Shown one piece after another: positions 23,770 through 30,526 of a stretch of 30,526 nt of DNA (positions within the stretch are counted from its first letter, which is position 1; each line of letters opens with the position of its first letter). The notes below the pieces were generated by a model, which was given only the letters and a program-made list of their open reading frames with translations, did no database searches and had not been told where the DNA came from. Made by a program: the position numbers and the translations under genes. Origin of the DNA: a virus. The stretch is from the IMG/VR virus record IMGVR_UViG_3300050034_000041, positions 1 through 30,526 of that record; one strand, 5' to 3'.

Positions 23770-24176
23770 TATGCCTCCTTTACTCGGGTGAGTGTTAGCG
23801 TCTTGTCGTCGCCGGACATGGCCATAGCCAACGTACCTAACTTCGCACACCTGAACATATCTGCTACCGCGACGACAATCACTCCGCCCGCATCGTCGAT
23901 GAGTTTAGCGAGAGAAGCGTTCACCATAATGCGGCACTCTTCCTCTGACCATATGCGCTTAGAGTGGTTAGTGAAAGTCGTTTTCAGGTCGCCTCGCTCA
24001 ACTAGAGCGTCTGCGGACTTCGATAGAAGCAGGTTTGCCAAATTACGCGCCTGCTCTACCGAGAAAACGATGTGCCCCACTCCATCTTTATCGGGCTGCA
24101 AGTCGGGGTGGTTGACGACGACTTCGCCGTTGCCGTTCGTCCCAACTTCTAAGACTCCCTTTGCGATATTACTCAC
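23769..24176 (-). CDS. Hypothetical protein
   Basis: 135 residues, GTG 24176 with GGAGG upstream and a GTGA overlap with the previous gene. Mixed alpha/beta; residues 38-56 form a likely helix (FSVEQARNLANLLLSKSADA), and a hydrophobic stretch GGVIVVAVADMF lies at about 97-108. No recognised family. Part of the coupled small-gene chain leading to packaging genes. Confidence 0.6.
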   Translation of the reverse strand: MSNIAKGVLEVGTNGNGEVVVNHPDLQPDKDGVGHIVFSVEQARNLANLLLSKSADALVERGDLKTTFTNHSKRIWSEEECRIMVNASLAKLIDDAGGVIVVAVADMFRCAKLGTLAMAMSGDDKTLTLTRVKEA

Positions 24177-24655
24177 ACGTCCCTCCGTTTCCCCTGCCCG
24201 CGCATCGACTGCGAGAATGTCGTCTGCTGAGGGTCGGGCTTCTTCAACTCCGTCGGCTTTGGAATGGGCTGGTCAGTCTCGCGGCGAAAGCGGTCAGGGG
24301 GAACCTCATCGATTGTGCCACCAAATGATTTTGTGGCATCCATCGGTATACTCTCTGAGCGATCTCCAATTCCTCCATACGTAATCCTTCCAAAGTCGTC
24401 TAGACTGTACTTTACCCACCAATCTGCATGAATTGCTCCATCTTCCATCCACCAAACAAGCGTCCACTTCGCATTGAACTTTGCATACGCCGTGTGACCG
24501 AGCAATGAGCACGTCTTGCCAAGTCCTTCGATGATTCGATCTTTAAGCGGCTCGAGCACATCCTCCGGCAATTCTCGCGTCATGCGGACTGCAATTCCCC
24601 TCTTGATTTCCGTTCCCGTCAATGGCTGAGGAATTACTACTGGTGATTCGTTCAC
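24173..24655 (-). CDS. Hypothetical protein
   Basis: 160 residues, GTG 24655 with GAGG seven bases upstream and GTGA overlap. The central region is rich in Trp and aromatics (WTLVWWMEDGAIHADWWVKY), mostly beta. The C-terminal third is Pro/Lys/Gln-rich and probably disordered. No family recognised. Confidence 0.6.
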   Translation of the reverse strand: MNESPVVIPQPLTGTEIKRGIAVRMTRELPEDVLEPLKDRIIEGLGKTCSLLGHTAYAKFNAKWTLVWWMEDGAIHADWWVKYSLDDFGRITYGGIGDRSESIPMDATKSFGGTIDEVPPDRFRRETDQPIPKPTELKKPDPQQTTFSQSMRGQGKRRDV

Positions 24656-24864
24656 GATTTCGCCTCTCTGTACCTTTCCTGCAATGCCGCCATTTTCTCA
24701 CGTGTGCTAAGCCTGGGCGGATGCTTTCCCTTTTCAATGTCGCGGATGGTCTTTCTTGTCAATCCAAGCACTTCAGCTTCCTGCTCCTGGGTCCATCTCC
24801 GCTCCCTACGCCAGCGCTTCCACTCGCTGGCATAGTCACGGGTTGGGTCGCCGTGCTGCCTCAT
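24652..24864 (-). CDS. HTH DNA-binding protein (Cro/CI-XRE type)
   Basis: 70 residues, ATG 24864 in ATGA overlap with the zinc-ribbon gene; longer readings run back into that gene. A basic N-terminus (WKRWRRERRW) is followed by a helix-turn-helix, TQEQEAEVLGLTRKTIRDIE, matching XRE-type regulators, then GKHPPRLSTREKMAAL. No oligomerisation domain. Likely a small repressor or activator; targets could be the GTGTACA sites at 25456-25504, which is only a guess. Confidence 0.75.
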   Translation of the reverse strand: MRQHGDPTRDYASEWKRWRRERRWTQEQEAEVLGLTRKTIRDIEKGKHPPRLSTREKMAALQERYREAKS

Positions 24865-25097
24865 ACCGGCCTGATGATTGTAGGAGCTTGCGGTTGATCC
24901 ATGCCCACAAACTGGGTATTCAAGGTATGGCCGCAATGGCTGCACCAGATCACAGACACCAGATGACCCGCCTGAGTCCTGACTACGTTGCACAGAAACT
25001 CCAGAGGAACATGCCCGCACTTGGGGCACTTAGGCTGCGCAATCTTCGGTGTCGTCTTGTTCACAAACTCAATCAGTTTATCGTCGCGGTCGCTCAC
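24861..25097 (-). CDS. Small zinc-ribbon protein
   Basis: 78 residues, GTG 25097, GTGA overlap with the previous gene. Two CxxC knuckles, C24/C27 (CPKCGH) and C52/C55 (CSHCGH), predict one zinc ribbon. No other domain. Possibly binds nucleic acid or protein. Confidence 0.7.
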   Translation of the reverse strand: MSDRDDKLIEFVNKTTPKIAQPKCPKCGHVPLEFLCNVVRTQAGHLVSVIWCSHCGHTLNTQFVGMDQPQAPTIIRPV

Positions 25098-25234
25098 TTT
25101 TCATGCTCCTTCTTGAAATGCTTGTGGTACTCGGTTAGGCTGAAACAGATCAAACCGCATCTTGGACAAATCCACTCGTGATCATTAACCACTTCATCCT
25201 CCAGTATCGGGCATCCATTCTCGTACTCCCTCAC
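25094..25234 (-). CDS. 46-residue C2H2 zinc-finger protein
   Basis: GTG 25234 to TGA 25094, with GTGA overlaps on both sides. Contains C-X2-C-X12-H-X4-H (CPRCGLICFSLTEYHKHF then KKEH), a classic C2H2 finger with the usual aromatic/Leu core. Such fingers are uncommon but known in phages. Probably binds DNA or RNA. Short, but the finger and overlaps support it. Confidence 0.65.
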   Translation of the reverse strand: MREYENGCPILEDEVVNDHEWICPRCGLICFSLTEYHKHFKKEHEK

Positions 25235-25449
25235 TTCTGCTCTTTTCCAATAGAAAACTTGGAGCGGGGATCGGGACTCGAACCCGAAACCTTCGGACTG
25301 GAAGACCGACGCTCTGCCTGTTGAGCTATCCCCGCAATTTTTTTATCCTGATCCCAATAGGGACTTTTACACTTTCCACACCTGATCGGCCTCCCAATAC
25401 CCCGGAAGCACCATTCCTTACCGCACGCTTTGCAATGCTTAATATCCAT
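25231..25449 (-). CDS. Zinc-ribbon protein whose reading frame runs through a tRNA gene
   Basis: 72 codons from ATG 25449. C6/C9 and C24/C27 with CKSPYWD form a zinc ribbon of a type common in phages. From about residue 39 to 64 the frame is the tRNA-Gly gene itself. The stop (25231) overlaps the next gene's GTG as GTGA, matching the other junctions, which suggests the full frame is real. A shorter functional protein ending in or before the tRNA cannot be excluded. No Shine-Dalgarno; the promoter at 25456-25483 puts the expected transcript start at the ATG, so leaderless translation is likely. Confidence 0.6.
   Translation of the reverse strand: MDIKHCKACGKEWCFRGIGRPIRCGKCKSPYWDQDKKIAGIAQQAERRSSSPKVSGSSPDPRSKFSIGKEQK
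25260..25335 (-). tRNA. tRNA-Gly (anticodon TCC)
   Basis: Full cloverleaf on the minus strand: acceptor GCGGGGA / TCCCCGC, D-arm GCTC/GAGC, anticodon loop CTTCCAG giving TCC (codon GGA), T-arm TCGGG TTCGAGT CCCGA, discriminator T as usual for Gly, and an encoded CCA (25260-25262). The anticodon stem has one U-U pair. It lies on the same strand as, and inside the frame of, the zinc-ribbon gene. Confidence 0.95.
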
Positions 25450-25455
25450 ACTGTT

Positions 25456-25483
25456 AGTGTACACTGTGCATTATTATTGTCAA
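25456..25483 (-). promoter_or_regulatory. Promoter of the leftward block
   Basis: Minus strand: perfect -35 TTGACA (25478-25483), 16-bp spacer, -10 TACACT (25456-25461). The -10 lies inside the palindrome AGTGTACACT (25456-25465). The expected transcript start is at about 25449, the ATG of the zinc-ribbon gene, implying a leaderless message. Confidence 0.65.
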
Positions 25484-25504
25484 GTGTACATAAAAAATGT
25501 ACAC
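25484..25504. promoter_or_regulatory. Operator-like inverted repeat
   Basis: GTGTACAT, five A, ATGTACAC: a perfect 8-bp inverted repeat just upstream of the -35 of the leftward promoter. The same TGTACA core is in the -10 palindrome at 25456-25465. Three related sites in 49 bp suggest cooperative binding of a dimeric regulator. Confidence 0.55.
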
Positions 25505-27818: not shown

Positions 27819-27832
27819 TAGAGGCAATGAAA

Positions 27833-28519
27833 ATGGAAACTCTCAGAATCACGAAGGCTGATCTGAACGAATACAACGAGTATGCCGCTTCACGCGACCT
27901 TGACTTTGACGGCCACATTGAAATCGCAGCGTCTCTAGGATGCGTAAAGGTGCGTGGATTTATCAGCGCTGCTGGTTGCTTGGGTATCGAGGCTGGCTCG
28001 GGTATCGAGACTGGCTTGGGTATCGAGGCTGGCTGGGGTATCGAGGCTGGCCGGGGTATCAAGGCTGGCCGGGGTATCAAGGCTGGCCGGGGTATCAAGG
28101 CTGGCTGGGGTATCGAGGCTGGCTGGGGTATCGAGGCTGGCCGGGGTATCAAGGCTGGCCGGGGTATCAAGGCTGGCTGGGGTATCGAGGCTGGCTGGGG
28201 TATCGAGGCTGGCTTGGGTATCGAGGCTGGCTCGGGTATCGAGGCTGGCTTGGGTATCGAGGCTGGCTCGGGTATCGAGGCTGGCTGGGGTATCGAGGCT
28301 GGCTCGGGTATCGAGGCTGGCTTGGGTATCGAGGCTGGCCTTCAAATCACAGCCAAAATGATCACAGCCAAACTGAGGATCTTCGCGGGAATCTGCATTT
28401 GGAAGATTCCATCTTCCACAGAGATGACCATCAGTGCTCAGCGTGTCGAGGGCACTGTGAGTTTTGGAGACGTGAAACTGCTCCCCAGTGAAACCCCATC
28501 AGCCACGCCAAAAGCGTAA
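27833..28519 (+). CDS. Hexapeptide tandem-repeat protein (GIEAGx)
   Basis: 228 residues from ATG 27833 (GAGG eight bases upstream); ATG 27827 is possible but too close to the GAGG. Residues about 51-170 are 20 perfect-length hexapeptides G-I-E/K-A-G-W/L/S/R. Flanks are normal: an N-terminus with ADLNEYNEYAASRDLDFDGH and a C-terminus with ITAKLRIFAGICIWKIP then EGTVSFGDVKLL. Regular Ile spacing of six suggests a repeat solenoid (beta-helix-like); function unknown. I recall similar GWGIEAG-type proteins in other phages, unverified. Confidence 0.75.
   Translation: METLRITKADLNEYNEYAASRDLDFDGHIEIAASLGCVKVRGFISAAGCLGIEAGSGIETGLGIEAGWGIEAGRGIKAGRGIKAGRGIKAGWGIEAGWGIEAGRGIKAGRGIKAGWGIEAGWGIEAGLGIEAGSGIEAGLGIEAGSGIEAGWGIEAGSGIEAGLGIEAGLQITAKMITAKLRIFAGICIWKIPSSTEMTISAQRVEGTVSFGDVKLLPSETPSATPKA
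27983..28342 (+). repeat. 18-bp tandem array, 20 units
   Basis: Twenty in-frame 18-bp units (360 bp), consensus GGTATCGAGGCTGGCTSG or variants. There are no length changes, so copy number can vary without frameshift. Not CRISPR: there are no unique spacers. Confidence 0.95.
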
Positions 28520-29737: not shown

Positions 29738-30130
29738 ATGAACCGCAAGCAGTACGCCCGTAAGACGTGCACCAGGAAGGAAAACATGAAAATTGACGAT
29801 TTGACTATCGGCGAAGCACGGCAATTGGCCTCAATGTTCGCAACTCAACCCGCTATTCCCGGCGATATAACCGGACCCTGGGAGATCGGGAAGAATTACC
29901 TCATCAGAACTGTAACCATGATCGACACGGGAAAGCTAGTGGCCGTTGGATCGCAAGAACTCGTCTTGGAGTCCGCCGCGTGGATCGCCGATACAGGGCG
30001 CTTTACTGGCGCACTGCAAACCGTAACCTTCGACGAAGTGGAACCCTTCCCCGAGGGGCGCTTGATCCTTGGGCGGGGATCAATTGTCGACGCAATCCAA
30101 ATTCCAAAGCTCCCCCGCGAGCAGAAATAG
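29738..30130 (+). CDS. Conserved-looking phage protein with AAWIADTGRF motif
   Basis: 130 residues from ATG 29738 (GGAGG six bases upstream), or 114 from ATG 29786, which has AGGAAGG upstream and starts with the better-looking MKIDDL. The core IRTVTMIDTGKLVAVGSQEL, then AAWIADTGRF, EVEPFPEG and RGSIVDA is a pattern I recall from small uncharacterised phage proteins; I recall them next to low-complexity repeat proteins, as here (unverified). Beta-rich, soluble. Function unknown. Confidence 0.7.
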   Translation: MNRKQYARKTCTRKENMKIDDLTIGEARQLASMFATQPAIPGDITGPWEIGKNYLIRTVTMIDTGKLVAVGSQELVLESAAWIADTGRFTGALQTVTFDEVEPFPEGRLILGRGSIVDAIQIPKLPREQK

Positions 30131-30137
30131 GTCAGCG

Positions 30138-30434
<297 letters not shown>

Positions 30435-30445
30435 TTTCAATCCGC

Positions 30446-30467
30446 GCCCCGCATGAAAGTGCGGGGC
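30446..30467 (+). promoter_or_regulatory. Strong GC hairpin after the dipeptide-repeat gene
   Basis: GCCCCGCA / TGCGGGGC, 8-bp perfect stem with loop TGAAAG. No T-run follows, so it is not a standard terminator. It lies 29 bases before the next start codon, in the same relative place as the hairpins of the cassette elements. Confidence 0.5.
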
Positions 30468-30495
30468 ATCGCCAATGGAATACAGAAAGGTCCAA

Positions 30496-30526
30496 ATGAA
30501 TCAGGCAATGCTCAGAACTGGTTTAG
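30496..30526 (+). CDS. Start of a second dipeptide-repeat-type gene (cut by window edge)
   Basis: ATG 30496 with AAAGG upstream opens MNQAMLRTGL, identical over 31 bases to the start at 30138, then the sequence ends. Likely a paralogous copy; the remainder is not visible. Confidence 0.5.
   Translation, partial: MNQAMLRTGL

Follow-up and report, generated by a model that had tools for sequence, protein, structure and literature searches.

A zinc-ribbon reading frame that runs through a complete tRNA-Gly in a phage, with further in-frame nested tRNAs in sister phages

Introduction

Can a protein gene be translated through a tRNA that is itself intact? The question is raised by a 30,526-nucleotide stretch of DNA from an uncultivated phage (positions 1 to 30,526 of IMG/VR record IMGVR_UViG_3300050034_000041), which is called the window here. 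One of its zinc-ribbon genes appears to contain an entire tRNA-Gly, and the initial annotation proposed that a single transcript of this gene would serve as either mRNA or tRNA precursor.

In bacterial operons of the thrU-tufB type a tRNA and protein genes share one transcript and, as is proposed for the window, the tRNA is excised from a polycistronic message carrying protein genes. There the tRNA lies between genes, whereas the window tRNA lies within a reading frame, so that its release would destroy the message of its host gene. Rickettsia palindromic elements, which are in-frame inserts in protein genes, likewise show an RNA-folding insert tolerated in a protein with the frame intact, but they are a single repeated element, whereas the inserts described here are tRNAs of differing isotypes in one gene family. 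Overprinted phage genes show the same dense overlap, which in our family includes a +1-frame gene in the linker of sister phages; the window differs from them in that one overlap partner is an RNA gene. Some mitochondrial tRNA genes, like the window tRNA, share nucleotides with neighbouring genes, but in a mite mitogenome, for example, these overlaps are at most 14 bp and lie at gene edges (PMC3091742), whereas all 76 nt of the window tRNA are internal and in frame. A search of the open-access literature did not find a phage tRNA nested in frame within a gene.

Results

The claim that a tRNA-Gly lies in frame within the zinc-ribbon gene was borne out: the ORF holds the full tRNA without a stop (Table 1). 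The product reads MDIKHCKACGKEWCFRGIGRPIRCGKCKSPYWDQDKKI, then AGIAQQAERRSSSPKVSGSSPDPRS, then KFSIGKEQK; the tRNA spans codon 39 into codon 64 and encodes AGIAQQAERRSSSPKVSGSSPDPRS, with one base left over that opens the following codon. ARAGORN called a tRNA-Gly(tcc) on the strand of the ribbon ORF, at 25335-25260. The identical tRNA in a near-identical contig (L001/L058; 99.9%), which carries the same ORF, scored 65.4 bits against Rfam RF00005 over the complete model (1-71; cut-off 29 bits), and the cloverleaf folds at -31.9 kcal/mol (z -2.66). By reading the sequence, a U31-U39 mismatch is its sole defect, and it has U73, G1-C72, C2-G71 and the anticodon UCC, all in keeping with a bacterial tRNA-Gly. 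Among the glycine codons of the large genes in the window, GGA, which this tRNA reads, ranks first (37%), a preference that fits with the tRNA being useful to the phage. The RNA of the whole ORF shows no excess stability over shuffles (z -0.08), and a folded regulatory leader was rejected on this ground.

Table 1. Positions of the features of the window locus, and tRNA sequences nested in the equivalent genes of sister phages.
Feature	Position	Strand	Basis or remark
Zinc-protein ORF	25231-25449	minus	72 aa, 72 codons; ATG at 25449
Zinc-ribbon N-module, codons 1-38, MDIKHCKACGKEWCFRGIGRPIRCGKCKSPYWDQDKKI	25336..25449	minus	motif CxxCG-x-W...P-x-x-C-x-x-C...W and IMG/VR matches
Complete tRNA-Gly(UCC), CCA encoded	25260..25335	minus	ARAGORN, Rfam, fold
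Post-tRNA tail ending KFSIGKEQK, and stop TGA	25231..25259	minus	sequence
Promoter TTGACA-16-TACACT	25456..25483	minus	sequence; -10 ends 6 nt before ATG 25449
Operator-like palindrome GTGTACAT-5-ATGTACAC	25484..25504	unassigned (.)	upstream of -35; read from sequence
Second GTGTACAC copy	25457-25464		overlaps -10; read from sequence
C2H2-like zinc gene, GTG start	25094..25234	minus	relatives in L059, L060, L067
Zinc ribbon 2	24861-25097	minus	coupled operon
HTH gene	24652-24864	minus	coupled operon
160-aa protein gene	24173-24655	minus	coupled operon
L064, intact tRNA-Lys(CUU)			73 bits; between linker and C-module CPSCGAMNGMHQRGC
L069/L085, intact tRNA-Met(CAU)			70.1 bits; between ribbon and C-terminal ribbon CTRCGESNNVIVWGPGHRCVSC
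L065, decayed relative of window tRNA-Gly			36.8 bits; directly behind ribbon, frame open
L073, 5' half of a tRNA only			in frame, ahead of C-module

Searches of Pfam and PHROG returned no match to the product, and its assignment as a zinc ribbon therefore draws on the motif and on IMG/VR relatives. Two CxxC knuckles with a W and a P between them and a W after them are present in the window ribbon, and an alignment of 13 ribbon sequences has C3, C6, W10, C20, C23 and W24 invariant. The tail beyond the tRNA matched no domain, and no homologue except the one in the 99.9% identical contig; it contains the likely ribosome-binding site of the next gene, GGAAAAGAG.

The transcript is probably leaderless, since the -10 element ends so close to the ATG, and an equivalent layout, with about 6 nt from the end of the -10 to the start codon, is present ahead of this gene's homologues in L062, L073 and L003. 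The GTGTACAC palindromes near the promoter (25449-25504) may be repressor sites. As the initial annotation had noted, the stop TGA of the ribbon ORF shares GTGA with the GTG start of the next gene in the style of its neighbours: the next four operon junctions are also 4-nt NTGA overlaps, which link the genes of the operon remainder (24173..25097, minus strand). Elsewhere in the window, an ORF at 27827-28519 consists of many repeats of six residues (GIEAGx), and 30069-30499 holds two more ORFs of low complexity.

Relatives of the phage were gathered with the 722-aa terminase, which found 17 loci, and 60 when used as an alignment; all are metagenomic contigs. A terminase scan of genome contigs gave no relative, searches of annotated phages yielded no protein relative, and nucleotide matches were confined to tRNA genes. 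The N-module matched 55 further IMG/VR loci, nearly all of which align over this module only, and ribbon homologues of unrelated phages mostly end no more than ten codons past SPYWD, many of them 2-10 codons past it.

The equivalent gene in close relatives is built of modules: an N-terminal zinc module, then a linker that varies, then a short zinc module at the C-terminus. The N-module is either the window's ribbon or MGALKSxxCSxxHxMVxxNLYxRxDGxRECLTCK. The C-module, carried by L064, L085, L062, L071 and L073, is of several types, and these swap partners: L059 and L084 have a C-module in common behind differing N-modules, as do L060/L006 and L064/L071. In a search of the whole collection, the CPxCxxMNGMHQRGC module formed the C-terminus of a longer ORF every time, behind three different N-modules, one of which (in L157) is an apparent ribbon-helix-helix module assigned by eye. 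AlphaFold was confident for only the N-ribbon of the L085 product and uninformative for its C-module. The window product, which ends in SKFSIGKEQK, carries no C-terminal zinc module and has the N-module alone in common with the family.

Most relatives have no tRNA at this place, and L002, L003 and L062 carry the ribbon without a tRNA and with C-termini unlike that of the window. This is the outcome that the initial annotation had named as a refutation, and it counts against the window's particular tail. Four sister loci do carry nested tRNA sequences (Table 1), and these all lie in the same tRNA frame as that of the window. The L065 copy has a broken anticodon stem and a D-loop without GG. Behind the tRNA, the frame stops at the start or ribosome-binding site of the next gene in four of four cases: at GTGA in the window, ATGGGGACTAA in L064, TGAGGAAAAAATG in L065 and TGAGGACTTTATG in L085. 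The three isotypes (Gly, Lys and Met) suggest as many acquisitions, but a single old insertion whose tRNA was later replaced could also account for them. A short ORF of L073 contains, at 1047-1121, a tRNA-Lys(CTT) whose D-arm is odd (A8, GTGT/GCAT stem) but whose T-arm and acceptor are sound. A tRNA-like sequence in L060 was rejected as a nested case, being decayed and outside any ribbon frame.

A pattern scan covering all of IMG/VR looked for ribbons with a tRNA start (TAGCTCA...AGAGC) 12-42 nt behind them. Its true matches were limited to the window phage and L065; the other 12 lack an in-frame ribbon-tRNA arrangement and most lack any tRNA, so the direct ribbon-tRNA form is observed in the window's phage family alone. 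Relaxed ARAGORN thresholds yielded only noise.

Protein sequence beyond the tRNA is conserved in two of the sister phages. Over 16 codons, the C-module of L064 differs from that of L071, which has no tRNA, at 2, 2 and 9 sites in codon positions 1, 2 and 3, and none of 5000 shuffles aligned as well. The tail of L085 aligned with that of L062, also without the tRNA, better than all 5000 shuffles. In neither L064 nor L085 does an in-frame start codon occur between the tRNA end and the first C-module cysteines; to make this module, a ribosome would have to translate across the tRNA or begin at a GTG or TTG that lies in frame within it.

Openness by itself is weak evidence for coding, because tRNAs are often stop-free. 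We counted stops per frame in a control set of 59 tRNAs from three tRNA-rich phages, and 24, 11 and 26 were free of stops in frames 0, 1 and 2, respectively; the chance is thus about 35% for a given frame and 41% for frame 0, the window's frame. Four of four family cases (Gly, Lys, Met and the decayed L065) are open in frame, for which random placement gives a probability of about 0.35^4 = 0.015, a value that is suggestive only because the four cases were picked via their open frames.

The linker of many sister phages is also overlapped by a +1-frame ORF that begins right behind the ribbon. Three of these ORFs (L060 3478-3759, L074 1453-1749 and L006 5047-5361) have CPFCxxPRVxRSDYxRCNxCxxNWL in common and appear to encode a conserved second zinc protein, with both frames under selection; they make a good case of overlapping genes on their own. 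We shuffled synonymous codons of the +1 ORF in nine phages and scored the openness of the zinc frame. The probability that this frame is open by chance ranged from 0.0016 to 0.50 per phage, and the product is 3e-11 over all nine and 1.7e-7 without L006 and L014, which were selected for length because both came via the ribbon search. The third frame holds 3-10 stops across the overlaps. Some +1 ORFs, which have no homologue, may not be real genes. The +1 ORF stops at T8-A9-G10 of the nested tRNA in L064 and at the same bases of the half tRNA in L073.

Discussion

On balance we favour a reading in which ribosomes translate the zinc gene across a nested tRNA that is probably functional, and in which translation and release of the tRNA are rivals for one RNA. 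Such read-through is likely for the family and, for the window, plausible. The proposal of one transcript acting as mRNA or tRNA precursor thus gained ground at the level of the family, from the nested Lys and Met tRNAs and the conserved protein past the tRNA in L064 and L085. Maturation of the tRNA and actual translation across it are inferred from these sequences, and processing may or may not act as a regulatory switch.

The linker after the N-ribbon would act as a nest able to host another gene while the ribbon frame remains open, and the window nest would hold a probably working tRNA-Gly(UCC), set in its stop-free frame. On some transcripts ribosomes would read across the tRNA and make the ribbon with a tail of about 34 residues, mostly tRNA-encoded; a ribosome finishing this tail would couple to the next gene via GTGA. 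Other transcripts would fold and be cut by RNase P and the 3' tRNA-processing enzymes, which would free tRNA-Gly, leaving the ribbon fragment without a stop and the downstream message detached from it. More broadly, and tentatively, functional tRNAs may be kept in frame in the zinc-gene linkers of several phages, with each transcript either translated or cut.

If this is true, supplying tRNA and making the zinc protein and downstream gene products are mutually exclusive outcomes, and ribosome and RNase P are forced to compete for one RNA. The locus would then be a small, tractable system for interference between translation and tRNA maturation. It would also offer a route that turns tRNA sequence into protein-coding sequence, of which the decayed tRNA of L065 and the half tRNA of L073 resemble later stages. 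Annotation pipelines that bar overlap between CDS and tRNA would trim or lose such genes.

A tRNA may instead have landed behind a ribbon gene with no nearby stop, leaving a frame that is open by luck and a tail without a role. An incidental open frame is possible for the window taken alone, given the control frequency for frame 0, the domainless tail and the many ribbon homologues elsewhere that end shortly after SPYWD. Luck leaves unexplained, however, the in-frame C-modules conserved beyond the tRNA in L064 and L085, and the post-tRNA stops that coincide with the next gene's start in every case. Read-through is preferred because of the nested Lys and Met tRNAs and the conserved C-modules beyond them, and we regard the incidental account as unlikely.

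We give little credence to co-option of the tRNA sequence as coding sequence that no longer makes a functional tRNA. L065 would suit such a history, with its damaged tRNA and open frame, as would L073, which retains just an in-frame 5' half, but the window, L064 and L085 tRNAs score 65-73 bits and have paired stems, an anticodon and CCA, which is unexpected for a relic.

Phage attP sites frequently copy tRNA sequence and two relatives carry 3' halves of tRNA-fMet, but the nested tRNA is very improbable as an attachment site rather than a working gene, and we do not favour this reading, since the window copy comprises the entire tRNA, 5' half and CCA included, and lies inside a gene, and separate 3'-half tRNA-fMet copies are present in the contigs of L086 and of L069, whose phage has the nested tRNA-Met as well. 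The tRNA-fMet 3' halves (GGGCTCATAACCCAAAGG...CCCCGCAACCA) at L139 769-815 and L140 659-715 (minus) resemble attP cores, suggesting integration into a host tRNA-fMet.
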